64,000 nt of DNA from Alloalcanivorax mobilis (GTDB lineage: Bacteria; Pseudomonadota; Gammaproteobacteria; Pseudomonadales; Alcanivoracaceae), in assembly GCF_002864685.1 (NCBI RefSeq), contig NZ_NMQZ01000009.1:1-64000 (forward strand), written 5' to 3'. The position numbers were made by a program, and so were the translations under genes. The notes under the pieces were generated by a model, which was not told the origin of the DNA, made no database searches, and saw only the letters and a list, made by a program, of their open reading frames with translations. Positions 29 to 58,310 of this stretch are shown in pieces; position 1 is the stretch's first letter, and each line of letters starts with the position of its first letter.

Positions 29-228
29 GTTGAAAGTTAAAAGTTAAAGGTTAAAAGGTCTTGCCCTGAAAGGCTTTCCCGCGGCCCGCTGCCGGTCCAG
101 GGTTGCTTCAGCTTGTAGCTTGCAGCTTGCAGCCGCACCGATCGCGGGCAAGGCCTCCCCGCCCCCAAGACCTCCCCCGCGTTTCAACTTTTAACTTTTA
201 ACTTTCAACTCGCGTACCTTTCAACTTG
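29..228. repeat. Heptamer-repeat element E1 downstream of sthA
   Basis: The left arm (29-58) is a 7-bp-periodic run of the word AAGTTAA. The right arm (181-228) is the reverse complement of the same word (TTAACTT), so the two arms face each other across a GC-rich core. A second 7-bp run, of the type TTGCAGC/TTGTAGC, lies inside at 106-134. No gene is visible in 1-243 apart from the sthA stop. The left-hand neighbour lies outside the window. Confidence 0.7.
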
Positions 229-243
229 CGTTCTCGCTGACAG

Positions 244-1644
244 CTATCTCGCCACCCGATTGACCCCATTAATCGCCGCTACCCGGTAGCCTTCCGCCAT
301 GGTCGGGTAGTTGAAGGTGGTGTCCACGAAGTAATGAAGGGTGTTGTTGGGCGCCGGCTGACGCATGACCGCTTGCCCGACGTGCACGATTTCCATGGCC
401 TGATACCCAAAGCAGTGGATGCCCAGCACTTCCAGCGTTTCCCGGTGGAACAGAATCTTCAGCATGCCAACGCGCTCACCGGTAATCTGTGCGCGCGCCA
501 GATTCTTGAAAAACGCCTGCCCGACTTCGTAGGGCACGCGCGCTTCGGTCAGTTCCTGTTCGGTGCGGCCCACCGAGCTGATGCCGGGAATGGTATAGAT
601 GCCGGTGGGCACGTCGGTGACCTGCTTGACCACTTCGCCGGACACAATCCCCGCCGCACAGAAGCGGCCCTGGTCATAGGAGGCGCTGGCCAGCGACGGC
701 CAGCCCACCACATCGCCCACCGCGTACACGTTTTCGGCGCCGGTCTGATAGCGTTCGTCCACGCTCAATTGCCCTCGGCCGTTGGCCTGCAGGCCGATAT
801 TCTCAAGGCCGATGTCCTGGGTATTGCCAGAGCGGCCATTGCTCCACAGCAGCGCGTCCGCGCGCAGTCGTTTGCCTGACTGCAGTTCCAGGGTAACACC
901 GCCGTCATCGGCGACCACCCGCTGGTAATGCTCGCTGTTGCGAATGGTGGCGCCCTGATCACGCAGGTGGTAACTGAGTGCGTCGGAAATTTCGGTATCG
1001 AGAAAGTCGAGCAAGTGCTCACGGCTGTTGACCAGATCCACTCTCATGCCCAGCCCGGTGAACAGGCAGGCATATTCGCAACCGATCACGCCGGCACCGT
1101 AAATAATCACGTTACGGGGCGTGTGCTCCATGGTCAGAATGGTGTCCGAGTCGTACACCCGTGGGTGATCGAAGTCCACGTCCTCGGGGTGATAGGGCCG
1201 TGAGCCGGTGGCGATCAGAATATTGGCGCTGCGCAGCAGCCATTGGCGGCCGGCGCTGTCGTCCACGCGCACCTCGCCCGGCCCCTGGATATAACCCCGC
1301 CCGGCGAACAGACGGACCCGGTTGCGGCCATAGAAATCGCTGCGCACCTGCACCTGGTTGTCGATCACCTCGCGGGTGCGTTTGATCAGGTCCTGCCAGC
1401 GCACGGTGCGCGGGTCGATCAGCCCCCGCAACAGCGGATTGCGCTGCGAGCGGATTACCTGCCGCACCTGGTGACGCAGAGCCTTGGAGGGAATGGTGCC
1501 CCAGTGGGTGCAATTGCCGCCGATCTGAGCCGGGCTGTCGATCATCGCCACCCGCAGCCCGCCCTTGGCGGCCTGCATCGCCGCCGCCTCGCCCGCCGGC
1601 CCGCTGCCAAGAATGACGAGATCCCATCCGGAACTGATATCCAT
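244..1644 (-). CDS. sthA: Soluble pyridine nucleotide transhydrogenase
   Basis: This cytoplasmic flavoprotein reversibly passes hydride between NADPH and NAD+, usually draining excess NADPH. Its 466 residues match the family length. The FAD-binding GSGPAG lies at residues 13-18 and the NAD(P)-binding GAGVIG at about 182-187. The region of the active disulfide reads [10 protein letters not shown]. The first Cys is present and the second is Thr, as expected for SthA and unlike lipoamide dehydrogenase or glutathione reductase. The ATG at 1644 is preceded by a GGGGAGG ribosome site. It is divergent from the LapA-domain gene across 148 bp. The assignment is secure. Confidence 0.96.
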
Positions 1645-1792
1645 ACTGCCTGCACCTCCCCTGTTGCGATTCGAGACACCCGGCCGGGACGGATAGAAAT
1701 TGCTCCGCGACTGTGAAACAGTAAACCGACCGTTATAAAAACTCTGTCAGACGTACTCCACCCGCCCCATTGCGCTACCCAGGAGCCCAGGT

Positions 1793-2110
1793 ATGGACAC
1801 CACACCCCACGGCAACCCCGACAACAAACCCTCTGGCGCGCGCCGCGCCGCCGCTGGCGCCGGGGGCTGGCTGCGCCGCCACCCACTGGGAACGGTGCAG
1901 ATTCTGTTGTTGATTCTGCTGGCCATAATTGTGCTGCAGAATCTGGAACCGACCTCCATTGACGTGCTGTTCTGGACCGTGGCGCGGCTGCCGAAGCTGA
2001 TGATCATCGTCATCAGCATGGTGCTGGGCGCGCTGACCTGGGAATTGATACGCCGCCACCTGAAGCCCCATGCCCGCGGCGCCACCCCTACCAGCCGAAC
2101 ACGTCCTTGA
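1793..2110 (+). CDS. LapA-domain (DUF1049) small membrane protein
   Basis: A 105-residue protein with a basic, proline/alanine-rich N-terminal tail, then a membrane segment at about 33-48 (LGTVQILLLILLAIIVLQN) and a second at about 66-82. The spacing of the two segments, with QN just after the first helix, is typical of DUF1049/LapA domains. The true lapA, next to lapB, lies at 50249-50488, so this is a second paralogue of unknown role. A CAGGAG ribosome site precedes the ATG. Its 3' end overlaps the convergent hda gene by 23 bp. Confidence 0.75.
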   Translation: MDTTPHGNPDNKPSGARRAAAGAGGWLRRHPLGTVQILLLILLAIIVLQNLEPTSIDVLFWTVARLPKLMIIVISMVLGALTWELIRRHLKPHARGATPTSRTRP

Positions 2111-2777
2111 TAAAAGGAATGGTCAGCGCCCGCTGGCGGGCCAGGGCGATGCGATCCAGCGTCGCCAATCGCGCCAGCAGTGCCGCCGGCGCGCGCTCAC
2201 TGCGCATCACCATATAGCGCGCCACCTCGCCGTTGAGTTTGAGGCCACGCTCGTGGGCGCGCTCGGCCAGCAGCGCAGCGAGATCGTCCTCGCTGAGCGG
2301 TTGCAAGCGAATCACCGGGCCAGCCGCCAGCCGGGTGGCCAGATCCGGCAGGCTCCAGCCCAGCGCGCCGGGCGCCGCCGAGGCGCTGAACAGCAACGCC
2401 CCACCACGCGCCATCACCCGGTTGTAGAGATGAAACAGCGCTTCTTCCCAGGCGCGCTGACCGGCGAAGCGGTCCACGTCGTCCAGGGCCAGCAGGTCGA
2501 ACTGCTCCATGGCTTCGAGCACCTGGGGCACCAGCGGCAACAGCTCCGAGGCCGGCAACAGACAGGCCTGGCGCCCGCGCACGCGCGCACGCCGCACCGC
2601 GCCCTCCAGCAAATGGCTGCGCCCCTGGCCGGGCTGGGCCCAGATCAGCGCCTGGCGCTCTTCGCCTTCGGCGGCGGCCTGCACGGTGGCCAGCGCCAGG
2701 CCGTTAGGGCCGGCGTGGAAGTTATCCAGGTCGTGGCCTTCGCGCAGTTCCAGAGCAAGCGGCAGTTGAGCGATCAT
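2088..2777 (-). CDS. hda: DnaA regulatory inactivator Hda
   Basis: Hda is an AAA+ protein that, bound to the DNA-loaded beta clamp, stimulates ATP hydrolysis by DnaA and so stops re-initiation. The N-terminal QLPLALEL (residues 4-11) is a clamp-binding motif. The nucleotide-binding region reads GQGRSHLL with Arg in place of the usual Walker A Lys, which is normal for Hda. LALDDVDRF is the Walker B region. At 229 residues it has the AAA+ module but not the DnaA DNA-binding domain IV. Its ATG directly follows the stop of the DUF2066 gene with no spacer, so the two are probably translationally coupled. Confidence 0.93.
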   Translation of the reverse strand: MIAQLPLALELREGHDLDNFHAGPNGLALATVQAAAEGEERQALIWAQPGQGRSHLLEGAVRRARVRGRQACLLPASELLPLVPQVLEAMEQFDLLALDDVDRFAGQRAWEEALFHLYNRVMARGGALLFSASAAPGALGWSLPDLATRLAAGPVIRLQPLSEDDLAALLAERAHERGLKLNGEVARYMVMRSERAPAALLARLATLDRIALARQRALTIPFIKDVFGW

Positions 2778-3872
2778 CTATAAACGACAGTAAGTGAGCG
2801 AGGTTGAGCCGGCCGACGCGGCGGCGCCCGACGCGGCGGCGCCCGACGCATCGGCGCCCGACGCATCCGCGCAACGGCGCAGGCCGGCAACGCCATCCAG
2901 CAGATCCGCCAGATCGGCGCGGCCGCCGGCGAAATCCACCGCGAAGCTGAGTGCATTGTCTCGGGCACCGCGCAATTGCACCGAGCGTATCGCGCCCAGG
3001 CTGTTCAATTGCGCCTGCAACTGATGCCAGGCCTCCAGGGTATCGACACCGCGAACCATCAGGGCCTGGGCCTGATGGTTGCCGGCGCTGGCGCCACTGA
3101 CCCGGTAACGGTCGGCCATTTGGGCGGTGATCCCGGTCACCATGCTGGCCAGGGCGGCGTCCTTGGAGGCCACCTGGTCACGCCCCTGGGTGACGGTGTC
3201 GCCACCGTGCAAAAGCCGCCAGTTGATGGTGGTGCGGGCGCCTTCGTAGATCACCGCGGTGGCCACCCATTCGGCGCCATAGCGCTGTGAGGCATCCAGC
3301 ACCGGGCCATCAAACCGGCCGCGCACGTCCGCCACGGTGAGTGTACGTTTCTCGGTCTCATCCCATTTTGGCAGCGTCACCCGCAAACCCTGATCGATGG
3401 CCGCCTGTTGCAGGCGCGCGCCGGTCTCGTCGCCGGCGCTGACCATATCGCCCCGGCCACTGCCCTGATCCACCAGCCACACCAGCACCGGCGGACGCGA
3501 CGCGCTCCACACCGGCGCGCCCTGGGCGGCCAGATAACGGCCCAATTCCTCGGCGTCGAACAGCGCATTGAGGGCGCGCGGTGAACCCTGCCGGTAGCTG
3601 TATTTCAGCAGCCAGCGCCGCGGGTCTTGCAGAGCCGCCGCCGCGCCGGGTTGCGCGTTAACATCGCTTTGCCCGGTGAGCCGGTGGATCACCTCTTCCA
3701 GGCCCTGGCGCAGGGCCTGCTGGTCCACGCTGGCGCCGCCCGCGCTGTCGTCCAGCGGTACCGTCACTTGCCCCAGGTCGCTTGCGGGGGCGGCGGTCGC
3801 CGCCGTGCCCATGGCCAACAGCAACCCGACAAGCACGGCTCGCCATACACGGCGTGGATGATTGAAAGTCAC
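2778..3872 (-). CDS. DUF2066 family exported protein
   Basis: A 364-residue protein with an N-terminal signal peptide (basic start, hydrophobic LVGLLLAMGTAATAA, likely cut after TAAPA). The body resembles the DUF2066 proteins that commonly lie just upstream of hda in Pseudomonas and relatives; their biochemical function is not known to me. It starts with GTG, with AGGAG upstream. The C-terminus carries a low-complexity ADASGADASGAAASGAAAS tail encoded by imperfect 15-bp tandem repeats (about 2815-2872), then a short ending SLTYCRL. It is divergent from purM. Confidence 0.8.
   Translation of the reverse strand: MTFNHPRRVWRAVLVGLLLAMGTAATAAPASDLGQVTVPLDDSAGGASVDQQALRQGLEEVIHRLTGQSDVNAQPGAAAALQDPRRWLLKYSYRQGSPRALNALFDAEELGRYLAAQGAPVWSASRPPVLVWLVDQGSGRGDMVSAGDETGARLQQAAIDQGLRVTLPKWDETEKRTLTVADVRGRFDGPVLDASQRYGAEWVATAVIYEGARTTINWRLLHGGDTVTQGRDQVASKDAALASMVTGITAQMADRYRVSGASAGNHQAQALMVRGVDTLEAWHQLQAQLNSLGAIRSVQLRGARDNALSFAVDFAGGRADLADLLDGVAGLRRCADASGADASGAAASGAAASAGSTSLTYCRL
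2815..2872. repeat. 15-bp coding tandem repeat in the DUF2066 gene
   Basis: Four near-identical copies of a unit resembling GCGGCGCCCGACGCG. They encode Ala/Ser/Gly/Asp-rich repeats close to the C-terminus. The length is a multiple of three, so copy-number changes would keep the frame. Confidence 0.75.
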
Positions 3873-4033
3873 CTGATCTCTACTCCTGGCGTTCGCCTCG
3901 ACGGCGCGCCGGCGGCCCGGACCGGGCCCGTGAATTTCCGGCGCGCATTATCTCCCATCTGACCGCCGCTGGCGAACCGGATTCCCCAACTCCATGTTTC
4001 TTACGCAAACACCCCGATATCGCCGCTCAGCCG

Positions 4034-4062
4034 TTTCCAGTGCCGGTGGTGGTTGCTAGAAT
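4034..4062 (+). promoter_or_regulatory. Candidate sigma70 promoter for purM
   Basis: TTTCCA (4034-4039) and TAGAAT (4057-4062) are separated by 17 bp, about 32 bp before the purM start codon. The match is by eye only. Confidence 0.4.
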
Positions 4063-4094
4063 ACGCGGCCTTCATGACCCCCCGGAGCCCTCCC

Positions 4095-7180: not shown

Positions 7181-7189
7181 AGCAAAAGC

Positions 7190-7288
7190 AGTTAAAAGTT
7201 AAAAGTTAAAAGTTACAGGCGCGGGCACGTCATTGCCGTGGGAAGGGCCCTCGCCGCGTTCAACTTTTAACTTGAAACCTTCAACTTC
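7190..7288. repeat. Heptamer-repeat element E2 between DUF3108 and dcd
   Basis: The left arm (7190-7217) is four heptamers of the word AGTTAAA. The right arm (7258-7288) is its inverted complement (TTCAACTTTTAACTTGAAAC). The 40-bp GC-rich core starts GGCGCGGGCACG. It fills almost the whole gap between two convergent genes and leaves no room for another gene. Confidence 0.8.
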
Positions 7289-12352: not shown

Positions 12353-12584
12353 GCGTGCTGGCGTTGGACGCCAGACGCCAGAATATGACCCTTTCCCCCA
12401 AAGCATTGCCACTACGGGACAAGCCTCCGCGTCAGCTCAAACCGTTCGCTTGCGGGGTGAGCATCAGACGCCAACCTCCATAAAACAGCCCACGACCGGG
12501 CCCGCCCCAATTCATGTATTCGAAAGCGGACGACCGGAGGGTTTAGCGTGCCAGCGTGTTGCGTGTTGCGTGTTGCATGAAAGC
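12353..12584. repeat. Heptamer-repeat element E3 between peroxiredoxin and HigA-like genes
   Basis: The left run (12353-12383) uses words like GACGCCA. The right run (12545-12584) is GTGTTGC repeated three times with flanking variants. The 389-bp gap 12277-12665 otherwise holds the hairpin at 12294-12318 and a tRNA-like repeat fragment (12531-12617). No credible gene is seen in it. Confidence 0.55.
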
Positions 12585-16838: not shown

Positions 16839-17804
16839 TTACCGCAACGCGCGGTACACCCGGAAGCGGTTGGTCTCACGGACCACCTGAACATGGCGAA
16901 ACGCGCCATCCAGCCACTGCGCGTAAGGCAGCTCCCGGTTGGCGACCATCCACATCTCTCCGCGCTCCGTCAGATAGCCCGGCGCCTGTTCGATCAACCG
17001 GCGGGTAATCGCGGTGGTGCGCTCCCGGCCGTCATGAAACGGCGGGTTGGTGATCAACGCCTGGTGCCGCCCGGACACGCCGGAATACAAGTCTCCGCCC
17101 ACCACCCGCCCCTGCAGGGCGTTGCGTTGCAGGGTGGCGGTGGCGGCGGCCACCGCCGTGGCACTGACATCACTGGCGCTGACCTGGCAACCGGCGTGGG
17201 CCAGCACCGCCGAGATCACGCCACTGCCACAGCCCATATCCAGCACTTTCTCGCGGGGCAGGTTCTCCTGCAGGGCGTCCAGCAGAAGCGCCGTTCCCTG
17301 GTCCAGGCGGCCGTGGCTGAACACGCCGGGGTAGGAAACCACCTGCAAATCGCCCACCTGAACCAGGCTCTCCACGTCAGACAGGCTCAGCGCCGGGCCC
17401 GGCCGGAGCCGGGCGCGGTAGAGTTTGCAGTGGCGGGCGCTGTCCACCAGGGTCACGTCGTCCGCGTAGCGGGCCAGCCGCGTGGTGCCGCCGCGAATGC
17501 CGCCCTTGGCGGGGCCCACCAGCCAGACTTCCAGGGCGGATTCAATCGAGCCCGCGATGCTGCGCAGCAACAGCTCAAGGCGCTCCACCGCCTTGGGCAA
17601 AGGCAGGATCACCAGATCCACGTCTTCCGGCAGGGTTGGCAGCGGTGCCCACTGGTGGGCGCCGACACCATAATCGTCGGCGTGGAGGTAAATGCGATCA
17701 GCGGGCAGATCCGCCAGCGCCGGGTCGTTCGCCTCCACCACCAGAACGCGACGCGACGCCAGTGAGTCCTGCTGACGCCACAATAGTCGGGTACTGTTTT
17801 CCAT
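16839..17804 (-). CDS. rsmC: 16S rRNA (guanine1207-N2)-methyltransferase
   Basis: RsmC methylates G1207 of 16S rRNA in the 30S subunit. The 321-residue protein has the family's two tandem domains. The N-terminal one is degenerate (TRLLWRQQDSLASRRVLVVE, HADDYGVGAHQW). The C-terminal SAM-binding domain has LDMGCGSGVISA and the catalytic NPPF in TNPPFHDG. The start at 17804 is preceded by AAGGTG; a longer reading would add 14 residues not typical of the family. Confidence 0.92.
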   Translation of the reverse strand: MENSTRLLWRQQDSLASRRVLVVEANDPALADLPADRIYLHADDYGVGAHQWAPLPTLPEDVDLVILPLPKAVERLELLLRSIAGSIESALEVWLVGPAKGGIRGGTTRLARYADDVTLVDSARHCKLYRARLRPGPALSLSDVESLVQVGDLQVVSYPGVFSHGRLDQGTALLLDALQENLPREKVLDMGCGSGVISAVLAHAGCQVSASDVSATAVAAATATLQRNALQGRVVGGDLYSGVSGRHQALITNPPFHDGRERTTAITRRLIEQAPGYLTERGEMWMVANRELPYAQWLDGAFRHVQVVRETNRFRVYRALR

Positions 17805-17882
17805 GCGCACCTTAGTCCGGGAAGAAAAGGCGGCAGTATAACGCAACCCGCCGCCAGCGCCTGTCCGGGGCGCGGCATTTTC

Positions 17883-17934
17883 GCGCCGTCCCCTACGCGC
17901 CGTCCCCTACGCGCCGTCCCAACGCGCCGTCCCC
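17883..17934. repeat. 14-bp tandem repeat upstream of rsmC
   Basis: Four copies of GCGCCGTCCCCTAC, two exact and two shortened at 13 and 11 bp, in the divergent gap between rsmC and slt. No hairpin or gene is evident. Confidence 0.7.
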
Positions 17935-18074
17935 GGCCGTCCTTCACGACTATTTCATCGCCGCCGCTTCACGGTGGCATCGCAGCCCGCCAAGTTTTAC
18001 ACAATCACCACCCTGCGCGCTGCCCGCGCTGGCTAGAATGGCAGCCTGAACCGATGTTTTTGTGGAGGCAATGG

Positions 18075-20024
18075 ATGGTCCGTTCCGCAGTTCTGGTTTG
18101 CTGTCTGCTGGTCAATCTGACCGCGTGCGCCACCGTCGGCGCCGACACGAGCTTTGAAGAGGCGCTTCACGCCGCCCGTAATAACGACTGGGAAACGCTT
18201 TCCCGTACCCAGGCCCGTCTCGGGGACGATCACCCCTTGAGCGCCTATCTGGATTTTCACCGCCTGCGCGCGGCATTGCCGGAACTCAATCCGACGCGTA
18301 TCGAGCAATACCAGCAACAGTACCCGGATTCCCCCCTGCCTAACGATATCCGTGGCCTGGCACTGGTCGCCTACGCCCGCGCCGGGCGCTGGGACGCCGC
18401 CCGCACGCTGTATGACACGCCGCCCAGAGCGGTGGAGTTGCGCTGCTACGCATTGCGCGCCGAACTCGGCGACCATCGCGGCCGGGTTCTCGAGCAAACC
18501 CGGGAACTGTGGCTGAGCGGTTTCTCCCGGCCATCCAGTTGCGACCCCCTGTTCGACGCCGCCCAGGAGGCGGGGGTGATCGGGCAAGATGAAATCTGGC
18601 AACGCATGCAGCTCGCTTTCGACGAGCGCGGCGACGGTCTGATGCGCTATTTGCGCAAGATGCTCCACGGACCCAACGAAATGGCCGGCGACTGGTTGAT
18701 TCGCCTGTATCAGGACCCCAAGCAGTTGCGTCAGTTACCCGGCGCGCTCAGCGACGCCCAGCGCCAGGTGCTGCTGTCCGCCGCTTTGCGCCGGCTGGCG
18801 TACAAGGACACCGTCGCAGCAAAAGAGATTTACCGCCAGGAGAGCCGTGCCCTTGGCCTCACCGACGCCAACCTGCGTCAGCGCGCCGCCACGCGCATCG
18901 CCTGGTATTCGACCATCCGTGGCATTGAGGAAAACCAGGACTGGCTGGATCAATGGCTGGCGGAAAACGATAACCAGACGCTGCTCGACCAGCGCGCCCG
19001 GCGTGCGGTCATCGAACAGGACTGGAGCCACCTGCCGGAATGGATCGCCCGCCTCTCCCAGGAGAATCAGGCCGACAGCCGCTGGTTGTACTGGCTGGGT
19101 CGCGCCGAGCAGGAAAGCGGCGATGCCAACCAAGCAAAACTCCATTGGCAGCAAGCCGCCCGGCAACGCAATTTCTATGGCTTCCTGGCCGCGGATCGCA
19201 TCGGCCAGCCGTATCATTTTGGCGAGGAAAGCGCGGCGGCGGTGAGCACCGACATCAACCCGCCGGCCCTGGCCCGCATCACCTTGCTGCGTGAGGCCGG
19301 CGAGCCCGGCCTGGCCTGGAAAGAGTGGAACTGGCTGATCGCGCACAGCAGCGAGCCGGCCCGCCGGCAATTGGCGCAAAAGGCGCTGAAACAGGGCTGG
19401 TACGATCTCACCGTGCAGGCCTCGATCCAGGCACAAACCTGGAACGTTCTGCAGTGGCGCTTCCCACCGGCCCACCAGGCGCTGTTCGCCGACGCCGGCC
19501 GCCGCTATGACCTGGATCCGTGGCTGGCGATGGCGGTGGCGCGCCGCGAGAGCGCCTTTTACCCCCACGCTCGCTCACCGGTGGGGGCGCTCGGCTTGAT
19601 GCAATTGATGCCGGCCACCGCGCGCAAGGTGGCGCGCGATCAAGGCCAGAGCGCCCCGGGCACCGAGCAATTACTGCAACCGGCCACCAATATCGACATG
19701 GGCAGCCACTACCTGGAAGAGTTGCTGACCAAGTTCAATGGCAACCGGATATTGGCGCTGGCCGCCTACAATGCCGGCCCTAGCCGGGTCGGGCGATGGC
19801 TCGCCGATGACCCGGACGAGGCGGTTCCGGTGGATGTCTGGATCGAAGCCATTCCGTTCCACGAAACCCGTGATTATGTGCAGGCGGTACTCACCTACCG
19901 GGTCCTGTTCATCGGTCTGCACGACGCCAAACAACGCAGCGCCCAGTTGCTGCTGCCCAGGGAGCTGAAGACACCGTATTCCATGGCCATGATCGACGAT
20001 GGCACCGAGTTGGGCGCCCGCTGA
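18075..20024 (+). CDS. slt: Soluble lytic murein transglycosylase (Slt70-like)
   Basis: A 649-residue peptidoglycan lyase that cleaves the MurNAc-GlcNAc bond to form 1,6-anhydroMurNAc. The N-terminal signal has a possible lipobox LTAC at residues 15-18, so it may be lipid-anchored. A long alpha-superhelical U/L domain precedes the C-terminal SLT domain (about 475-620), with the catalytic Glu492 in ARRESAFYP and the motifs VGALGLMQLMPATA and LALAAYNAGP. The start at 18075 is favoured because TGGAGG lies 6 bp upstream; an ATG 21 bp earlier would place that site inside the gene. Confidence 0.93.
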   Translation: MVRSAVLVCCLLVNLTACATVGADTSFEEALHAARNNDWETLSRTQARLGDDHPLSAYLDFHRLRAALPELNPTRIEQYQQQYPDSPLPNDIRGLALVAYARAGRWDAARTLYDTPPRAVELRCYALRAELGDHRGRVLEQTRELWLSGFSRPSSCDPLFDAAQEAGVIGQDEIWQRMQLAFDERGDGLMRYLRKMLHGPNEMAGDWLIRLYQDPKQLRQLPGALSDAQRQVLLSAALRRLAYKDTVAAKEIYRQESRALGLTDANLRQRAATRIAWYSTIRGIEENQDWLDQWLAENDNQTLLDQRARRAVIEQDWSHLPEWIARLSQENQADSRWLYWLGRAEQESGDANQAKLHWQQAARQRNFYGFLAADRIGQPYHFGEESAAAVSTDINPPALARITLLREAGEPGLAWKEWNWLIAHSSEPARRQLAQKALKQGWYDLTVQASIQAQTWNVLQWRFPPAHQALFADAGRRYDLDPWLAMAVARRESAFYPHARSPVGALGLMQLMPATARKVARDQGQSAPGTEQLLQPATNIDMGSHYLEELLTKFNGNRILALAAYNAGPSRVGRWLADDPDEAVPVDVWIEAIPFHETRDYVQAVLTYRVLFIGLHDAKQRSAQLLLPRELKTPYSMAMIDDGTELGAR

Positions 20025-34018: not shown

Positions 34019-35938
34019 GTGGCCGACTCCGCGCTTCGCAGTAACCCGCCGGTGCTGGCCGGCCCGATACTGAGGCGGCTGGAGCCGCAACGGCTGGTGC
34101 TGTGGCTGGTCGCCAGCCGGCGCCTGGCGTTGACCCTGAAGCTGTTCGAAAACGGCGCCGACGGCCCCAGCCGCCAATGGTCGGCGCGACAACTGCCCTG
34201 CCGCGTGGTGCCGCTGGGCCGCCAGGCGTTTCTGCATCTGATTGATCTGCATCTTGAAGCGCCGCTCGCCGAGGCGGCCTTGATCGGCTACGACCTGTGC
34301 CTGCCGGACGGCACCGGCATCGCCGACTGGGCCAGCCACCTGCTCTACGCCGGCGAGCGCCACCCCACCTTCGTGGTCCACAGCGAGCGCCGGCAGTTGT
34401 TGTACGGCTCCTGCCGCAAGCCCCACCACCCCAGCCGTGATGGCCTGACCCGCGCCGACGCCCTGATTGCCGAGCGCCCCACCGACCCGAAAGCGCGCCC
34501 CGCCCTGCTGCTGTTGACCGGCGATCAGATCTACGCGGACGATGTGTCCGCGCCGATGCTGTGCGCCGTTCAAGCGCTGATCAAACAGCTCGGCCTGCCC
34601 GGCGAGCCCCTGGAAGGGGCAGTGGTGCGCCACAGTGACGAGCTGTACCGCCATCCCGACAACCACCATCGGCAACGGCTGCTGCCGGCGCTCAAGGTCA
34701 ACCGGGCGCTGCGCGAGCGTTTCTTCGGCGGCGTCAAAAAGCCAATTTTCACCACCGACAGCGCCCGCCGTCACCTGGTGACGTTCAGTGAAGTGCTGGC
34801 CATGTATCTGCTGGTCTGGTCGCCATTACCCTGGCGGCTGATCGACCCCGCCCCGATGGTCGGGGCAGACGACGACCAGCGCATCGATGCGCAAAATCAG
34901 CAGCGTATTATCGACGGCTTTGTCGCCGACTTGCCCGCCGCCGCGCGGGTGCTCGCCCATTTGCCCACGGTGATGATGTTCGACGACCACGACGTCACCG
35001 ACGACTGGAACCTGACCGCCGCCTGGGAAGCCACCGCTTACGGCCACCCGTTCTCGCGCCGCATCATTGGCAATGCACTGATCGGCTACCTGCTCTGCCA
35101 GGGCTGGGGCAATCAGCCGGAGGCCTTCGAAGAACCCTTGGACGACCTCGTCACGCTGCTTGAAGAAGGCGCCGATGGCGACTTGCAAGCAGCCCCGCAC
35201 GATGCCTTGATCGACCGCCTGCTGACCTTTGAACGGTGGCACTTCAGCCTGCCCGGCAGCCCCAAGATCGTGGTGCTCAACACCCGCACCCGACGCTGGC
35301 GCAGCGAACGCAGCCCCACACGCCCCTCCGGTCTGATGGATTGGGAAGCGCTCACCGAGCTGCAACAGGAGTTACTCAATCAACCCGCCGCGGTGATTGT
35401 TTCCCCCGCGCCGATTTTTGGCGTCAAATTGATAGAAACCGTGCAGAAGCTGTTTTCCCTGGCCGGCAAACCCCTCACCGTGGACGCGGAAAACTGGATG
35501 GCTCACCGCGGCGCCGCGCGAGTGATCCTGAATATTTTTCGCCATTCGCGCACCCCCGCGAATTACGTAGTGCTCTCCGGCGACGTCCACTATTCCTTCG
35601 TGTACCGGGTGCGCATTCGTCAGCGCCAGCACGGCCCGCGCATCTGGCAGCTTACCGACAGCGGCCTGAAAAACCGCTTTCCCGATCGCCTGCTGAGCTG
35701 GTTCGACCGGCTCAACCGCTGGCTGTACGCGCCCTGGTCGCCGCTCAACGGCTTCACCAAGCGGCGCCGTCTCGCCGTCACCCCCTACCTGCCGGAGCCC
35801 CGCGACGCCGGCGAACGGCTGTGGAACGGCGCCGGCATAGGCCTGGTGACCCTGGACGCGAAAGGTCGCCCGGAACGCATCGAACACCTCAACAGCGACG
35901 GCACCACGGTGTGCTTTAAGCCCCGCGACGCGGATTAG
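34019..35938 (+). CDS. PhoD-like phosphatase, type 2
   Basis: A 639-residue PhoD-superfamily protein with motifs LYGSCRKPHH, LLTGDQIYADD, MMFDDHDVTDDW and LSGDVHYSF. It is longer than and unlike the phosphatase at 27264, with a big insertion between the second and third metal motifs. A GTG start with AAGGA 7 bp upstream. No signal peptide or membrane segment is visible. The substrate is unknown. The metal ligands look complete, so it is probably an active phosphoesterase. Confidence 0.83.
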   Translation: MADSALRSNPPVLAGPILRRLEPQRLVLWLVASRRLALTLKLFENGADGPSRQWSARQLPCRVVPLGRQAFLHLIDLHLEAPLAEAALIGYDLCLPDGTGIADWASHLLYAGERHPTFVVHSERRQLLYGSCRKPHHPSRDGLTRADALIAERPTDPKARPALLLLTGDQIYADDVSAPMLCAVQALIKQLGLPGEPLEGAVVRHSDELYRHPDNHHRQRLLPALKVNRALRERFFGGVKKPIFTTDSARRHLVTFSEVLAMYLLVWSPLPWRLIDPAPMVGADDDQRIDAQNQQRIIDGFVADLPAAARVLAHLPTVMMFDDHDVTDDWNLTAAWEATAYGHPFSRRIIGNALIGYLLCQGWGNQPEAFEEPLDDLVTLLEEGADGDLQAAPHDALIDRLLTFERWHFSLPGSPKIVVLNTRTRRWRSERSPTRPSGLMDWEALTELQQELLNQPAAVIVSPAPIFGVKLIETVQKLFSLAGKPLTVDAENWMAHRGAARVILNIFRHSRTPANYVVLSGDVHYSFVYRVRIRQRQHGPRIWQLTDSGLKNRFPDRLLSWFDRLNRWLYAPWSPLNGFTKRRRLAVTPYLPEPRDAGERLWNGAGIGLVTLDAKGRPERIEHLNSDGTTVCFKPRDAD

Positions 35939-35943
35939 CGGAT

Positions 35944-35974
35944 CAGTTTTCAGTTTTCAGTTTTCAGTTTTCAG
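35944..35974. repeat. Heptamer-repeat run E4
   Basis: Four exact copies of CAGTTTT plus CAG, right after the type-2 PhoD stop. Only one arm is seen here. The same word recurs at 42102-42132. It is the left end of the 421-bp convergent gap 35939-36359, which also holds the long hairpin at 36127-36233 and a terminator; no gene is credible in it. Confidence 0.85.
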
Positions 35975-42101: not shown

Positions 42102-42252
42102 CAGTTTTCAGTTTTCAGTTTTCAGTTTTCAGATGGGGCGCGGGCACGGCCTTGGCGCCATCACGGCCTCGCCCGTGTTGTAGCCTGAAGCTTGTAACCT
42201 GAAGCTTGTAGCCTGAAGCTTGTAGCCTAAAACTTGTAACCTGAAGCTTGAG
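42102..42252. repeat. Heptamer-repeat element E5 between rsxG and def
   Basis: The left run (42102-42132) is four copies of CAGTTTT plus CAG. The right run (42178-42252) is ten 7-bp units alternating AAGCTTG and TAGCCTG/TAACCTG. The core begins GGGGCGCGGGCACGG, like the core start of element E2 (GGCGCGGGCACG). It fills the convergent gap. Confidence 0.85.
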
Positions 42253-46899: not shown

Positions 46900-47105
46900 C
46901 CGCCCCGCGCTGATGACGCCGCCCGGAGGGCGGCCAGGGCGCCGGTGAATCACGCATGATAAAGCGCCTTCTCGAGGCAGCCCGCTATGGCGCCGAAGGC
47001 GTGCCTTGATCAGGCCGGAAAGCCAGAATCATCAGGGAATAATTCAGCGCTGCCCCAGGGTCCGGTATACTGCCGGGCCCTGTTTTATTTTCGCACCGGA
47101 GTGTC

Positions 47106-47756: not shown

Positions 47757-47894
47757 GAAGTTGAAAGTTAAACGTTGAAAGGGGCACCGTGCCATCGGCG
47801 GGGCTGTGGCGTTTGCTGGCTGATCTGGTGCGGACATAGCCTGCACGCCGACATGGCTGCCGGCCGCGCTTTCGACTTTTCACTTTCAACTTTC
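47757..47894. repeat. Heptamer-repeat element E6 between nth and comEA
   Basis: The left arm (47757-47782) contains GTTGAAAGTTAAACGTTGAAA. The right arm (47869-47894) is the inverted complement type, TTTCACTTTCAACTTTC. The units are more degenerate than in E1 and E2. It lies in a convergent gap. Confidence 0.65.
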
Positions 47895-52827: not shown

Positions 52828-52847
52828 AATATTCTTTAAACCGGGCG

Positions 52848-53519
52848 TCAGGTCAGAGACCGGGCGGCGGCTTCATCAAGGATACGCTGCACCACCTGAT
52901 CCACGCTCATTTCGGTGGAATCGACCACCACGGCGTCGTCGGCGGCCTTCAAGGGGGCGACATCGCGCTTCATATCCCGCTCGTCACGGGTACGGATGTC
53001 CTCAATGAGGGTCGCGAGGGTAGCACCAAAGCCCTTTTCCTTCAACTGGGCATGGCGCCGGCGGGCGCGTTCCTCGGCGCTGGCGGTCAGGTAGATTTTC
53101 AGTGGCGCGTCGATGAACACCACCGTGCCCATGTCGCGGCCGTCGGCGACCAACCCGGGGGCCAGGGCAAAGGCGCGCTGGCGCGCGAACAGGGCGTCAC
53201 GCACCGGCTGCAGCACCGCCACCTGGCTGGCCAGCTCACCGACCCGTTCCTGGCGGATCTCATTGCCGACGTCCTCGCCGTCCAAAATCACCACCGTGTC
53301 CCCTTTGCCCTCGCGGAACGTCACCGGCAAGCGCTCGGCCAGATCAACCAGCCGCATTTCGTCATCCAGCGGCACGCCCAGGCGCTGCGCGTGCAGCCCC
53401 AGCACCCGGTACAGCGCGCCGGAATCGAGCAGATGCCAGCTCAGGCGGGCCGCCACCTGACGCGCCACCGTGCCTTTGCCGGAAGAGACCGGGCCATCAA
53501 TGGTAATAATCGGAATCAT
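52848..53519 (-). CDS. cmk: Cytidylate kinase
   Basis: A 223-residue enzyme phosphorylating CMP and dCMP. The P-loop ITIDGPVSSGKGTVA, DGRDMGTVVF and the lid RRRHAQLKEKG region are present. The ATG at 53519 overlaps the aroA-part stop (ATGA) and follows GGAGGTG. It is cotranscribed with tyrA-aroA, as in Pseudomonas. Confidence 0.96.
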   Translation of the reverse strand: MIPIITIDGPVSSGKGTVARQVAARLSWHLLDSGALYRVLGLHAQRLGVPLDDEMRLVDLAERLPVTFREGKGDTVVILDGEDVGNEIRQERVGELASQVAVLQPVRDALFARQRAFALAPGLVADGRDMGTVVFIDAPLKIYLTASAEERARRRHAQLKEKGFGATLATLIEDIRTRDERDMKRDVAPLKAADDAVVVDSTEMSVDQVVQRILDEAAARSLT

Positions 53520-55753
53520 TGCACCTCCAGGGCGAGGCCGGCGGCGCGCGCCAGATCGGCGAAGCCGGGGAAACTGGTGGCCACGTTGGCGCAGTGGCGA
53601 ATGGTAATCGGCGCCGAGGCACACAAGCCGGCGATGGCAAAGCTCATGGCGATGCGATGATCGCCATGGGATTCCACCTCTCCGCCTCCCAATGGGCCGC
53701 CGACAATACGGATGCCGTCGTCGAACACCTCATGCTCGACCCCCAGCGTGGCCAGGCCATCGGCCATCACCTGAATGCGGTCGGACTCCTTGACGCGCAG
53801 CTCCTCGGCGCCGCGCAGCACGGTTTCGCCATCGGCACAGGCGGCGGCGATGAACAACGCCGGGAATTCATCGATCGCCAGCGGCACCAGCTCGGCGGGG
53901 ATCTCAATGCCCTTCAGAGGCGCCGCCCTGACCACCAGATCCGCCACCGGCTCGCCGCCGGCGTCGCGGGGGTTATCCAGGCGAATGTCGGCGCCCATCA
54001 GTTTAAGAATGTCGATCACCCCGGTGCGGGTCGGGTTGACGCCCACGTGCGGCAGCGTCACCTCGCTGCCCGCGGCAATCGAGGCGGCAACCAGGAAAAA
54101 CGCCGCCGAGGAAATGTCCGCGGGCACTTCCAGGCGGGTGGCGGTCAACGTCTGGCCGCCGCGCACGGCGCTGGTGGGGCCGTCCCGGCGCACGCTGACG
54201 CCGAAACCGCCCAACATGCGCTCGGTGTGATCGCGGGTCGGTGCCGGTTCTGTGACCGAGGTCTCGCCGTCGGCGTAGAGCCCGGCCAGCAGCACCGCGG
54301 ACTTCACCTGGGCGGACGCCATCGGCAGGTCATAATGGAAGCCCTTAAGCGTCTGGCCGCCATGTATACGCACCGGTGGGCGGCCGCCCTCGCCGGTGGT
54401 GATGTGCGCGCCCATTTCGCGCAACGGCTTGGCCACCCGCTCCATCGGGCGTTTGGCCAGCGACTCATCGCCGCTCAGTTCCACGTCAAACGCCTGGCCG
54501 GCCAGCAAACCGGTGAGCAGGCGCATGGAAGTGCCGGAATTGCCCATATACAGGGGCTCCTCCGGCGCTTTCAGCCCGTGCAGGCCAACCCCGTGCACCG
54601 TCACCTGGCCGTTGTGTGGCCCCTCGATCACCACCCCCATGTCGCGAAACGCCTGCAGCGTGGCCAGAGCGTCCTCGCCTTCCAGGAACCCTTCCACCTC
54701 GGTGACCCCCTGGGCCAGCGAGGCGAGCATGATGGAGCGGTGGGAAATGGACTTATCACCGGGCACCCGCAGGCGGCCCTGCAGGCGGCCACCGGGGGCG
54801 ACCACGAAAGTCGGATTGTTTTGTTCAGTCATGCCTGTCTCATCATCGCAATGGCGCGCGCGAGTGTAGGAGGTGCGCGTGTTCATGGCCAGAAAGTGAG
54901 CCCGGGCGGCGTTGGCCCGGGTCATGATGCCCATCAGGGCCTCGGCGTCGTCTTCACCGATGGCGCGCTGGAAACGGTCGATGCCATCGCGAAACAGCGC
55001 CAGCGCTTCGAGCACCGCCTGGCGGTTCTCGCGGAAGATATCGTGCCACATCACCGGGTCGGAGCTGGCAATGCGGGTAAAATCGCGGAAGCCGCCGGCG
55101 GCGTAGCGGAAAATCTCGTTGGAATCTCCCTGACGGGCCAGCGTATCGACCAGCGAAAAGGCCAACAGATGCGGCAAATGGCTGGTTTCCGCCAGCACCC
55201 GGTCGTGGTGATCGGGGGTCATTTCCAGCACCTCGGCGCCCACCGCGCGCCACACCTCGGCGACCCGGGCCAGGGCCTCGGCGTCGGTCCGCGCCACCGG
55301 GGTGAGGATCACCCGGTGCTGCTCGTAGAGGTGTGCATCCGCCGCTTCCACACCGCTCTTTTCCTTGCCGGCAATCGGGTGGCCCGGCACGAACCGGGGA
55401 AAATGATCGCCGAGAGCGGCGCGGGCCGCCTCGATCACCGCCCCTTTGACACTGCCGCCGTCGGTGACGATGGCGCGCTCCGCCAGCCCGGGCTTCAGCG
55501 CCGCCAGCACCTTGCCCATGGCCGACACCGGCGTGGCCACGAACACCAGCTCGGCGCCGCGCACCGCCACCGCCAGATCCTGGCTGCCCTCGTCGATCAG
55601 GCCCAGCGCCAGCCCTTGCTCCAGGGTGCGCGCCGAGCGCGAGCCCGCCACCACGGTACGCGCCAGCCCGCGCTCACGCAGGGCGGCGGCCAGGGAGCCG
55701 CCGATCAGCCCGAGCCCGATGATCGCCACCCGGTTGAACAACGGTGCGGTCAT
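53516..55753 (-). CDS. tyrA-aroA: Bifunctional prephenate dehydrogenase / EPSP synthase
   Basis: A 745-residue fusion. Residues 1 to about 300 are prephenate/arogenate dehydrogenase (AIIGLGLIGGSLA, GHPIAGKEKSG, HLPHLLAFSL), which oxidises prephenate for tyrosine. From residue 308 (MTEQNNPTF) it is EPSP synthase (VPGDKSISHRS, GNSGTSMRLLTGLLAG, KESDRI), the sixth shikimate step. SAQVKS and KRPMERV are features of class II EPSP synthases. The fusion is known from Pseudomonas and Alcanivorax-like bacteria. GGGAG precedes the ATG. Confidence 0.96.
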   Translation of the reverse strand: MTAPLFNRVAIIGLGLIGGSLAAALRERGLARTVVAGSRSARTLEQGLALGLIDEGSQDLAVAVRGAELVFVATPVSAMGKVLAALKPGLAERAIVTDGGSVKGAVIEAARAALGDHFPRFVPGHPIAGKEKSGVEAADAHLYEQHRVILTPVARTDAEALARVAEVWRAVGAEVLEMTPDHHDRVLAETSHLPHLLAFSLVDTLARQGDSNEIFRYAAGGFRDFTRIASSDPVMWHDIFRENRQAVLEALALFRDGIDRFQRAIGEDDAEALMGIMTRANAARAHFLAMNTRTSYTRARHCDDETGMTEQNNPTFVVAPGGRLQGRLRVPGDKSISHRSIMLASLAQGVTEVEGFLEGEDALATLQAFRDMGVVIEGPHNGQVTVHGVGLHGLKAPEEPLYMGNSGTSMRLLTGLLAGQAFDVELSGDESLAKRPMERVAKPLREMGAHITTGEGGRPPVRIHGGQTLKGFHYDLPMASAQVKSAVLLAGLYADGETSVTEPAPTRDHTERMLGGFGVSVRRDGPTSAVRGGQTLTATRLEVPADISSAAFFLVAASIAAGSEVTLPHVGVNPTRTGVIDILKLMGADIRLDNPRDAGGEPVADLVVRAAPLKGIEIPAELVPLAIDEFPALFIAAACADGETVLRGAEELRVKESDRIQVMADGLATLGVEHEVFDDGIRIVGGPLGGGEVESHGDHRIAMSFAIAGLCASAPITIRHCANVATSFPGFADLARAAGLALEVQ

Positions 55754-55778
55754 GGTGTTGCTCCCCGAGGCATCGCCA

Positions 55779-56882
55779 TCAGCGCTTCAGCACTTTGTTC
55801 AGGGCCGCCAGAAAGCGTTCATTTTCCCGCGCGGTGCCGGTGGTCACACGCAGGTGCCGGGGCAGACCGTAGCCACCCAGCGGGCGCACGATCACCCCCT
55901 CGCGCAACAACGCCTGATACACCGGCTCCGCTTCACCGCCGCAGTCGAAGGTGACGAAATTGGCCACCGACGGAATGTGTTCGAGACCGGCCTGATCCAG
56001 CCCTTCCACCAGTTGCCCGAGACCGGCGGTGTTTTCACTCTTGGAGTTTTCGATGTGATCGATGTCGTCCAGGGCGGCTTCCGCCGCCGCCAGCGCCGGA
56101 ATATTGACGTTGAACGGCTGACGCACCCGGTTGAGCACATCCGCCAGCTGCGGGTGCGACACCGAGTAACCAACCCGCAGACCGGCCAGGCCATGAATTT
56201 TCGAGAAGGTGCGCAGCACCACCAGGTTGGGGTACCGCGCGAGCCGGTCGAGACCGTTGGGGTAATGGCTTTCTTCCACGTACTCGCAGTAGGCCTCGTC
56301 GAGCACCACGATCACGTCTTCCGGGACCCGCGCCAGGAAGGCATCCAGCGCGTGGGCGTTGAACCAGGTGCCGGTGGGGTTGTTGGGGTTGGCCAGGAAC
56401 ACGATGCGGGTGCGCTCGTTGATCGCGTCCGCCATCGCCGCCAGATCGTGGCCGTACAAATTGGACGGCACCACCACCGGTTTCGCCGAACAGGCCAGGG
56501 TCACCAGCGGGTAAATGGCAAAACCGTACTCCGAGCTGACGGTTTCATCGCCGGGCCGCAAATAGGCGTGGGCGATCATCTCCAGCAGATCGTTGGAGCC
56601 GTTGCCCAGGGTCAGTTGGCTGAATTCCACCCGCAGCCGCTCGGCCAGCGCCGCCTTCAGCGAATAGCCTGCGCCATCCGGATACAGATGGCTCTGCCCC
56701 AGGGCATGCCGCGCCGCGTCCATGGCCCGATGGCTCGGCCCGAGGGGATTTTCGTTGCTGGCCAGCTTAATCACATCGCGCACGCCCAGCTCGCGCTGCA
56801 ACTCCTCGATGGGCTTGCCGGGCTGATAGGGCCTCAGTTGCTGCACACCGCTGTTCGCCAATTGGATAAAGTCGCAGGTCAT
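55779..56882 (-). CDS. hisC: Histidinol-phosphate aminotransferase (HisC2 type)
   Basis: A 367-residue PLP aminotransferase with IKLASNENPLGPS, NPNNPTGTWF, the DEAYCEYV Asp and the PLP Lys in FSKIHGLAGLRVGY. In this aromatic gene cluster it probably transaminates aromatic keto acids or imidazole acetol phosphate. The sequence alone does not decide which. A spacer with a heptamer element follows toward pheA. Confidence 0.93.
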   Translation of the reverse strand: MTCDFIQLANSGVQQLRPYQPGKPIEELQRELGVRDVIKLASNENPLGPSHRAMDAARHALGQSHLYPDGAGYSLKAALAERLRVEFSQLTLGNGSNDLLEMIAHAYLRPGDETVSSEYGFAIYPLVTLACSAKPVVVPSNLYGHDLAAMADAINERTRIVFLANPNNPTGTWFNAHALDAFLARVPEDVIVVLDEAYCEYVEESHYPNGLDRLARYPNLVVLRTFSKIHGLAGLRVGYSVSHPQLADVLNRVRQPFNVNIPALAAAEAALDDIDHIENSKSENTAGLGQLVEGLDQAGLEHIPSVANFVTFDCGGEAEPVYQALLREGVIVRPLGGYGLPRHLRVTTGTARENERFLAALNKVLKR

Positions 56883-56930
56883 AAGTTGTTCCTAAATCGC
56901 CGGTAGAGAGTCGCTCTAAAGTTCCTGGTT

Positions 56931-57074
56931 GCCAGACGCCAGACGCCGGACGCCGGACGCTTGTCGACTGTCGCTTCGCTCCAGCCGACCACACCAGGAG
57001 GCTTCGCAGGAAACACCGCAAAACCGTCCGTACCGGGTTTAGCGTCCGGCGTCCAGCGTCCAGCGTCCGGCGTC
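56931..57074. repeat. Heptamer-repeat element E7 between pheA and hisC
   Basis: The left arm (56931-56960) is GCCAGAC and GCCGGAC units, four in a row. The right arm (57042-57074) is their inverted complement (GCGTCCGGCGTCCAGCGTCC...). The right arm reaches into the pheA stop codon at 57073-57075. This element lies between two tandem minus-strand genes. Confidence 0.8.
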
Positions 57075-58155
57075 AAAGCACCGCTTTCGGGTACGAGCCG
57101 AGCAGCTTAATGGTGTTGCCCTGCTGCTCCAGGGTGTTGAGCACCTCGGCCAGCTCGGCGTTTTCCTTGTGGCCTTCGCAATCAATAAAGAACACGTAGC
57201 TCCAGTTGGCGATGCGCGAGGGCCGGCTTTCCAGGCGGGTCAGGTTGATGCCTTTCTCACGGAACGGCATCAACAGGTCGGAGAGCAAGCCCGGGCGGTT
57301 CTTGCCGGACACCAGCAGGCTGGTCTTGTCGCGGCCGGACGGCGGGGTGTCCTGGCGGCCGATGATCAGAAACCGGGTGGTGTTGTCCGGGCGGTCCTCG
57401 ATGTTGCTCTGCACCTGCTCCAGACCGTACAGCTCGGCGGCCATGTCGCCGGCGATCGCCATGGCGTTCCATTCGTCCTTGAGACGGCGCGCCGCGTCCG
57501 CGTTGGAACTGACCGCGATGCGCTCCACGGTGGGCATATGCGTGTCGATCCATTGCCGGCACTGGGCCAGGGTTTGCTGGTGGGAATAGATGCGCGTCAC
57601 CTTGTCCTGGCGGGTGTGAGGCCCGGCCAGCAGGTGATGGTGAATGCGCAGTTCCACCTCGCCGCAGATCTGCAACTCGGAGTTCATAAAGGAATCAAGG
57701 GTGTGGTTGACCATGCCCTCGGTGGAATTCTCCACCGGCACCACGCCGAAATGCACGGCGCCGGCGGCCACTTCCCGGAACACTTCATCAATGGCACCCA
57801 GCGGCACGCTCTGCGCGGCGTGGCCAAAATGCTTGATCGCCGCCTGTTGGGTAAAGGTGCCCTCGGGGCCCAGAAACGCCACCCGCATGGGCTGTTCCAG
57901 CGCCAGGCAAATGCTCATTACCTCGCGGAACAGGCGCGCCATGTCCTCACCGCCCACCGGCCCCTGATTGCGCTCCTTGATCCGGCGCAACACCTGGGCT
58001 TCACGCTCCGGCCGATAAAACACCGGGGTGGGGTCTTCGGCGTATTTGACCTCGGCCACCTGATGGGCCAGTTCGGCACGTCGGTTGATCAGGTCCTGGA
58101 GCTGTTGATCCAGGGCGTCGATCTGTTCTCTTAGCTTGTCCAATGAGTTGGTCAT
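57073..58155 (-). CDS. pheA: Bifunctional chorismate mutase / prephenate dehydratase
   Basis: A 360-residue enzyme for phenylalanine synthesis. It has an N-terminal AroQ chorismate mutase (LREQIDALDQQLQDLINRRA), a prephenate dehydratase domain from about residue 90 (FLGPEGTFTQQAA, NTTRFLIIG), and a C-terminal ACT domain with ESRPS for Phe feedback. The stop codon overlaps a heptamer-repeat arm. Start ATG at 58155. Confidence 0.96.
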   Translation of the reverse strand: MTNSLDKLREQIDALDQQLQDLINRRAELAHQVAEVKYAEDPTPVFYRPEREAQVLRRIKERNQGPVGGEDMARLFREVMSICLALEQPMRVAFLGPEGTFTQQAAIKHFGHAAQSVPLGAIDEVFREVAAGAVHFGVVPVENSTEGMVNHTLDSFMNSELQICGEVELRIHHHLLAGPHTRQDKVTRIYSHQQTLAQCRQWIDTHMPTVERIAVSSNADAARRLKDEWNAMAIAGDMAAELYGLEQVQSNIEDRPDNTTRFLIIGRQDTPPSGRDKTSLLVSGKNRPGLLSDLLMPFREKGINLTRLESRPSRIANWSYVFFIDCEGHKENAELAEVLNTLEQQGNTIKLLGSYPKAVL

Positions 58156-58173
58156 TTGCTGTCTCGCTTACAG

Positions 58174-58310
58174 GCTCGCACGCATCACGCTTGCACGCTG
58201 CGTGGGAGCGGGTGCCCTGTTTGCCTATTATTTCTCAGCGCGCCGCCGACGGCCACCACGCTCTCTGTCTTCCAGGTGCCATGCGTGTTGCGTGCCGCGT
58301 GCAAGCGCTC
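58174..58310. repeat. Heptamer-repeat element E8 between serC and pheA
   Basis: The left arm (58174-58206) has units like GCACGCA/TCACGCT. The right arm (58281-58310) has GCGTGTTGCGTGCCGCGTGC, the inverted complement type. It fills the 157-bp spacer between two minus-strand genes and reaches to 3 bp from the serC stop. Confidence 0.7.

Follow-up and report, generated by a model that had tools for sequence, protein, structure and literature searches.

Tandem arrays of a 7-bp unit make an over-represented class of long microsatellites in several bacteria, for which there is no agreed explanation. We describe here a family of intergenic elements bordered by such heptad arrays, found in a stretch of 64,000 nucleotides of the genome of Alloalcanivorax mobilis (contig NZ_NMQZ01000009.1, positions 1 to 64,000, henceforth the window), and we set them beside the systems that they most resemble. 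As regards layout, the closest is Geobacter metallireducens, where tandem arrays are paired on opposite strands and fall into several word classes within one genome, class 1 being made of octamers and class 3 of five heptamers MTYCTGA, with a variable distance between the paired arrays of classes 1 and 2, as here (PMC2700814). Tandem 7-8 bp arrays in opposite-strand pairs are what the sequence examined here contains as well, and the initial annotation, which recognised no described family with this inverted layout, must to that extent be corrected by the Geobacter precedent. The likeness does not go all the way: the Geobacter sites were interpreted as possible IHF or HU sites, and core homology, change of word on one core and a relation to gene ends are absent from that account, as far as the parts of it available to us go (PMC2700814). 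One of the words found here, read on the other strand as ATCCTGA (class F below), fits the class-3 consensus MTYCTGA (PMC2700814), a similarity of word alone; four units of MTYCTGA were found in 0 of 298 other genomes of the phylum, Geobacter itself not being searched.

As regards anatomy, the likeness is with eukaryotic foldback (FB-like) transposons such as Tm1, which have terminal inverted repeats of variable numbers of short tandem units, unequal ends and members resembling miniature inverted-repeat transposable elements (MITEs) (PMC3169594). Inverted ends of tandem units in variable number are present here too; Tm1, in contrast, belongs to eukaryotes, with units of ~14 bp, 9-bp target-site duplications and, in some members, a transposase (PMC3169594), and no such duplication or transposase was found here. 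Repetitive extragenic palindromic (REP) sequences and REPINs, of the GTAG and CGTC super-families, are likewise short dispersed palindromes in lineage-specific families, located near gene 3′ ends in convergent or codirectional spacers (PMC3733652). They differ in being 20-40 bp hairpins with GTAG or CGTC tags (PMC3733652), whereas the present elements mostly span 80-300 bp, have tandem-heptad arms and show no link to the REP-associated tyrosine transposases (RAYT); CGTC does occur on one strand of class-B arms and GTGGGAGCG in a class-C core, and by unsystematic inspection no tagged short hairpin defines the elements. Finally, the TAACTGA heptamers of Beggiatoaceae (PMC4679880) and the GGGNATC heptamers of Xanthomonas and Nostoc (PMC4692102) are abundant, mostly intergenic and lineage-specific in their words, and have been given translation-linked or G-quadruplex interpretations; their arrays are direct, save one indirect repeat in Maribeggiatoa, and the parts of these accounts available to us describe no inverted arms with a core (PMC4679880, PMC4692102).

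The Geobacter sites are a precedent for the layout and the eukaryotic foldback elements one for the anatomy, and the elements may be called REP-like or foldback-like palindromic repeats with heptad ends. We do not file them as REPs because no RAYT link was seen and no defining tag was established, nor as FB elements because neither a transposase nor a target duplication was shown. No description of such elements in Alcanivorax came from literature searched by titles and abstract starts, with subscription journals mostly outside, and searches with the literal repeat sequences returned nothing. What is gained is that heptamers are here tied, in relatives of marine oil degraders, to a concrete object, a dispersed palindrome that has a core between polarised heptad ends and favours one kind of location, so that the questions of why seven, of what reads the heptads and of what moves the elements become testable. 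Scattered reports, from the Geobacter paired sites to the TAACTGA repeats of Beggiatoa and cyanobacterial heptamers, may find a link in them.

The window is contig C88 of a draft genome of 4.10 Mb in 92 contigs, which we code G000. Periodicity was studied in a sample of 864 kb, 21% of that genome, and whole-genome counts were made for three words (A, B and D); outside the window annotations, genes were called with a simple caller combining open reading frames (ORFs) and GC content at third codon positions. In 464 kb, exact arrays of nearly three copies numbered 30 at period 7, all but one noncoding, against 0-6 at each of periods 5, 6 and 8-21; period 4 gave 27, only six of them noncoding. A degenerate scan at threshold 12 found 51 arrays at period 7 (48 noncoding), 32 at its multiple 14 (27 noncoding) and at most eight at any other period from 4 to 16, and one Markov shuffle gave no period-7 array at all. 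When mismatches were allowed, the 864 kb held 92 period-7 arrays, 82 of them noncoding, while periods 5, 6, 8, 9, 10, 11 and 12 gave 1, 18, 2, 14, 1, 5 and 22 arrays, with 0, 4, 1, 0, 0, 3 and 2 noncoding. In this 21% sample period 7 is thus commoner than the others and, as we now describe, the arms are inverted; the intergenic family announced by the initial annotation stands.

The arrays are not random heptamers. Six words, GTTRAAA (class A), GACGCNN (B), CACGCNN (C), CAAGCNN (D), CAGTTTT (E) and CAGGATN (F), fit 79 of 82 arrays, and 30 of 32 in held-out sequence, when a fit by chance is expected for 5% of any 7-mers and 8% of letter-shuffled consensus words; a common period beneath differing words, as initially proposed, is supported. 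Neighbouring arrays at most 300 bp apart were inverted in 21 of 26 pairs, direct in two and unmatched in three, random pairs of the same arrays being inverted in 20% and direct in 20% of cases (binomial p 7e-5 for 21/23). When neighbours of one class were collected by the class patterns in all fetched stretches examined, 79 pairs had the polarity forward then reverse (F..R), one was F..F, and neither R..R nor R..F occurred; this count includes one D locus entered twice, and stretches L192-L198, fetched because of class-A matches. In a held-out 400 kb, not used in defining the words, all 22 same-class pairs were F..R, and four mixed-class pairs (D with B) occurred besides. By pattern, paired and solitary arms in the 864 kb numbered 22/6 (A), 40/7 (B), 10/25 (C), 21/6 (D), 0/3 (E) and 2/2 (F), and matches inside called genes 4/28 (A), 9/47 (B), 18/35 (C) and 2/27 (D), the class-C pattern being the least specific because so many of its matches fall in genes.

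The arms border units that are repeated in the genome. Homologies of at least 90 bp (E<=1e-10) make 150 same-class pairs among 45 elements at different places, and in 81% of cases a homology stops no more than 21 bp from an arm end, while 7% extend more than 30 bp outside; homology that mostly stops at the outer arm ends marks discrete dispersed elements. The best copies are 92.7% identical in class A (2 kb apart), 90.3% in D and 88.3% in B. Among 79 pairs, ten with cores shorter than 35 bp were dropped, and 47 of the 69 remaining cores were linked to another at E<1e-3, some of them through nesting. The initial opinion that a transposable repeat was unlikely is accordingly not supported. Core comparison further shows that related cores can carry different words, GTTRAAA or CAGGATN in one case, GACGCNN or CACGCNN in another: the core of a CAGGATN-armed element of the congener G002 matches GTTRAAA-armed cores of G000 (best E 1.2e-11), and class-C and class-B cores match at E about 4e-9. 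A profile built from eight class-A cores found a CAGGATN-armed element of G002 (E 1.7e-9) and a CAGTTTT-armed element of the window (42133-42175, E 4e-4); three weaker matches beside CAGGATN-type arms (E 0.05-0.6) are not counted as evidence, nor is one A-B link (E 4e-4), and the links of D cores come largely from nesting or inner D runs. Regular nesting of class A within class D was considered and dropped as a pattern, one of 19 class-A elements having, by pattern, D-type arms on both sides and another on one side; by eye, degenerate D-type arms surround more class-A elements, and a clear nest of D around B is present at L261.

The window itself contains the following elements, where z is that of the RNA minimum free energy over the two strands, TRF stands for Tandem Repeats Finder, and pheA and the aminotransferase, dCTP deaminase-like and endonuclease III-like genes are named from Pfam.

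29..210, element 1, class A: left arm GTTGAAA/GTTAAAA 29-56 (TRF), core 57-181 with an inner class-D run 110-133, right arm TTTCAAC/TTTTAAC 182-210; z -7.6 (+) and -5.1 (-); the core matches the class-A profile at E=4.1e-12, being one of the eight that built it.

7187..7286, element 2, of class A, separating the convergent DUF3108 and dCTP deaminase-like genes: AGTTAAA in the left arm (7190-7215), a core of the GCGCGGGCACG type, and a right arm that is degenerate and was delimited by eye (7259-7286); z -2.6 (+) and -5.1 (-) for 7187-7285; congeners hold other contents in the same spacer.

12367..12576, element 3, a hybrid downstream of a gene of AhpC/TSA peroxiredoxin type: the left run (12367-12382) is of class B, GACGCCA, and the right run (12554-12576) of class C, GCGTGTT, the two words being related; z 0.4 and 0.7 (12360-12580), no hairpin excess.

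35943..35974, solitary class-E arm: CAGTTTT, 4.6 copies (TRF), just past the stop of gene 34019-35938.

42102..42250, element 5: left run of class E, CAGTTTT, at 42102-42132, core of class-A lineage at 42133-42175 (the E=4e-4 profile match, outside the training set), right run 42178-42250, TTGTAGCCTGAAGC, class-D-like with a 14-bp higher-order unit and not complementary to the left run; z -1.1 and -0.8.

47760..47894, element 6, of class A but degenerate, downstream of an endonuclease III-like gene: left arm GTTGAAAGTTAAACGTTGAAAG 47760-47781 (by eye), right arm 47869-47894; z -4.8 and -3.3 (47757-47894).

56931..57074, element 7, of class B, downstream of pheA, the chorismate mutase/prephenate dehydratase gene: GACGCYR in the left arm (56931-56960) and YRGCGTC in the right (57041-57074), with the core between them; z -5.6 and -11.7.

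58179..58303, element 8, class C, between gene 58313-59428 and pheA: CACGCNN(N) in the left arm (58179-58199), GCGTGNN in the right (58281-58303), and GCGTGGGAGCG within the core; z -1.2 and -1.8.

The name serC for gene 58313-59428, like that of gyrA, is one that we presume from gene order; the closest named relative of its protein is from Alloalcanivorax marinus (86%, records nearest to the genome of the window being possibly omitted). Two early claims can be set against this list. A strict 7-bp period had been seen in eight spacers, and TRF reports period-7 arrays in seven of them (the left run only at 7190-7288, the right run only at 47757-47894), but the eighth, 58174-58310, yields just a period-8 array at 58165-58199, its heptads being spaced by 7 or 8 when followed by eye. 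A left run matched by an inverted right run had been described for most; it is found, partly by eye, in five of the eight (29-210, 7190-7286 and 47760-47894 of GTTRAAA type, 56931-57074 with GACGCYR, 58179-58303 with CACGCNN), while two pair different words and one is single-armed.

The elements lie next to gene ends, and more precisely after stop codons: the gap to a stop codon has a median of 11.5 nt (n=54, quartiles 6 and 28), that to a start codon of 85.5 nt (n=30). For 42 elements with both neighbours called, the neighbours were convergent in 13 cases, codirectional in 28, with 23 of these nearer the stop, and divergent in a single one. Among spacers of 30 bp or more, arrays were present in 15 of the 71 that are convergent, in 31 of the 242 codirectional ones and in 4 of the 85 divergent ones (convergent versus divergent, Fisher p 0.0025). 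Closeness to 3′ ends with scarcity between divergent genes is the placement known for REPs (PMC3733652). The four inverted A or B elements of the window have hairpin z values from -2.6 to -11.7 over both strands, and a model in which the elements act as 3′ hairpins is probably right; Rfam, at its gathering threshold, recognised a single tRNA in the window and nothing else.

From one species to another the arms lengthen or shorten by whole heptads. Around a core identical in the two, one arm of the serC/pheA element is 8 bp longer (+8) in G006 than in G005 and the opposite arm 15 bp shorter (-15), and at another orthologous site the left arm has four units in G001 and three in G002. Such changes, together with an array of ~76 uninterrupted units, support the early suggestion of a mechanism that expands a 7-bp unit. 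The array in question is a class-D arm at L025:8047-8606 (G000:C27), with ~76 uninterrupted copies of GCTTGCA plus a few, facing a partner arm of ~3 units; long CAAGCTA runs were also noted in G199 and G019, of the group g8. Template switching from arm to arm was considered as a source of the units and rejected. Arms that belong to one element are not significantly closer in their variable bases than arms taken from different elements (permutation p 0.99 for A, n = 19; 0.31 for D, n = 11; 0.14 for C, n = 5; borderline at 0.075 for B, n = 21), which argues against continuous copying between arms, though copying may have happened occasionally; unit numbers of the two arms correlate weakly in class A (0.47) and at 0.06 in B, 0.18 in D and -0.33 in C.

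Comparison with relatives (the genus g1 being presumably Alloalcanivorax and g8 Alcanivorax) reveals orthologous spacers with and without an element. After the DUF3108 gene, as judged by eye, G000 has class-A arms, G002 a GCTGCAA array with an opposite GCTTGAA run, G003 CAGGATN arms, G001 and G011 a plain REPIN and G006 class-C-like arms around a REPIN, whereas the spacer is reduced to 6 nt in G004 and G010. The spacer of element 7 is just 3-9 nt in G001, G004, G009 and G010; that of element 8 measures 157-196 nt in nine of 19 genomes compared and at most 51 nt in the other ten. Abundance was followed in 46 genomes of the family by overlapping three-unit windows on both strands, so that long arrays are counted many times, with the reversed pattern as control. 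Word A counts 146 in G000, 116 in G002, 100 in G003 and 51 in G001, and none in G004-G010; word B 598 in G000, 491 in G008, 100 in G012 and 0-12 in the other ten genomes of the genus; word D 254 in G000, 152 in G002, 60 in G004, none in G005-G008, and 2-407 in the 17 genomes of g8. The three words were absent from the 16 genomes of g2-g7. The reversed control gave nothing for B; for D it gave 20 in G008 (without matches), 3 in G028, 1 in G201 and 0 elsewhere; for A it gave 12 in G000 and 13 in G002, and in G202 and G027 of g8 it gave 11 and 9 against 19 and 12 matches, and low word-A counts are unreliable because the control reaches similar numbers. Word abundance is lineage-specific within the two genera, and in the class at large, among 142 other genomes, a D match of four units occurs in one and an A array of four units in one. 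Carriage on plasmids was considered and rejected: 72,556 plasmid records, compared by BLAST (low-complexity filter on) with an element of class A and another of class B, gave no match.

One spacer deserves separate mention. Between pheA and the aminotransferase gene, G003 (L160) and G012 (L149), which are not sister species, share an 87-nt class-C element with four differences (95% identity), where identity is 81 and 83% in the flanking 100-base windows and 89% over the genes as a whole, with some gene windows at 93-96%. The sister G001 has only 9 nt there, G002 and G011 another sequence, and the spacer of G024/G029 is similar. Horizontal spread or constraint is possible for this element.

We can understand these elements, with somewhat more confidence than doubt, as dispersed non-autonomous palindromes of the REP/MITE kind with a foldback-type anatomy, mostly ~80-300 bp long, their heptad-array ends inverted with fixed polarity around a mostly GC-rich core. 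Their heptad ends would have been read by a putative trans-acting factor that moved them; this would account for the usual agreement in word between the two ends despite a drifting core, and for the other words carried by related cores. Slippage or unequal exchange would add or remove units in each arm. Insertions would be retained for the most part just beyond stop codons, where the palindrome, once transcribed, would fold into a long 3′ hairpin and might reduce read-through or shield the end of the messenger, as proposed for REPs. They look like old mobile hairpins of a little-described type, multiplied separately in different species. Several facts weigh against this account. The arms were not found to enclose a transposase: in the stretches examined, with enclosed ORFs not typed, pairs of one class at distances of 0.5-4.5 kb comprise five F..R and three R..F, which is near chance. 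No target-site duplication was seen by eye at the flanks or between filled and empty spacers, element ends not being fixed. Most cores have diverged, 22 of 69 having no match at E<1e-3, so that recent movement is not shown, and the class-C element at the serC/pheA site, present in both genera, looks old. Mixed-word elements exist (window 12367-12576 and 42102-42250, L010:9773-9879), which would be unexpected of a factor reading both ends; solitary arms are frequent; half of the class-C pattern matches (18/35) are within called genes; and three of the seven window elements that were folded (12360-12580, 42102-42252 and 58174-58310) have z from 0.7 to -1.8, with little or no hairpin excess. A wider form of the same account, which we offer as a doubtful extension, would make a bacterial foldback-like superfamily of them, where ends are cooperative arrays of interchangeable 7-bp address words, the putative factor reads a single heptad register, and the word changes at both ends from one related element to another (GTTRAAA to CAGGATN, GACGC to CACGC) with the core kept, each species growing its own set of words.

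Other explanations lay the stress elsewhere. The arrays might be binding sites for a protein covering 7 bp per unit, ribbon-helix-helix like omega at parS of pSM19035, or a nucleoid protein as suggested for Geobacter, the whole being a regulatory or architectural site whose mobility is secondary. Units look suited to this: five of seven bases are nearly fixed and two variable in B (positions 1-5 conserved at 0.98-0.99) and in D (five at 1.0 except one at 0.91), class A varying mainly at one position, in arrays found by periodicity, loosely assigned to classes and without those above 20 units; the variable bases are unmatched between arms, and each ParB dimer of pSM19035 binds one 7-bp unit, in direct or inverted order (PMC9499535). 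Six words in one genome would nevertheless need several factors or a tolerant one, and a classical regulator would not be expected to sit after stops and so seldom in the divergent spacers that contain promoters. By inspection, no word of the six fits the omega/ParB consensus WATCACW in any rotation. We hold this explanation unlikely. The least probable is that simple-sequence slippage did everything, heptamer microsatellites arising and expanding in spacers, with palindromes already present there, such as terminators, supplying the inversion. In bacteria, heptamers are known to be over-represented (PMC4692102), and whole-unit indels, 14-bp higher-order units and the ~76-unit array do witness slippage or unequal exchange; yet six words for 79 of 82 arrays when chance gives 5-8%, one polarity in 79 of 80 pairs, homologous cores and homology ending at the arms would all be unexpected.

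That the elements are a REP/REPIN subclass mobilised by RAYT transposases is improbable too, if slightly less so. They are placed as REPs are, Y1_Tnp (PF01797) matches exist in all 13 genomes of the genus searched, some class-C arms enclose by eye a Pseudomonas-like REPIN (G005, G006), and REP dimers inside larger palindromes are known in other genomes (PMC3733652). Against this, heptad-armed elements flank 0 of 13 RAYT loci inspected (350 bp on each side; not all PF01797 matches are covered by these loci), L180 and L191 have their own GTGGGAGCGG or GTAGGAGCG REPs, and the three-unit CTGAACA array just upstream of the RAYT gene at L181 (G000:C14) uses a word outside the six classes. PF01797 matches, 2-5 per genome, do not follow words A, B and D, G005 having five matches and one word window when G000 has three and the most windows. 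With no heptad-armed element beside the 13 loci inspected and with an abundance of words A, B and D that does not follow the number of PF01797 matches, RAYT was rejected as the mover, and the non-autonomous palindrome moved by a putative heptad-reading factor is the account that we retain. As an observation apart, the RAYT loci L179, L184, L188, L189 and L190 have an inverted AAAAGGGGAC pair upstream of the gene (at L184 also downstream) in place of GTAG-type REPs.

Two further spacers may be recorded. In G003 the one orthologous to window 46900-47105 has long C and G runs, possibly an assembly artefact, where congeners have a short hairpin or a CAGGATN element. Within the window, the spacer between genes 16839-17846 and 18054-20024 contains at 17882-17934 a 14-bp tandem repeat, CGCGCCGTCCCCTA, in 3.9 copies, which lies outside the heptad classes.

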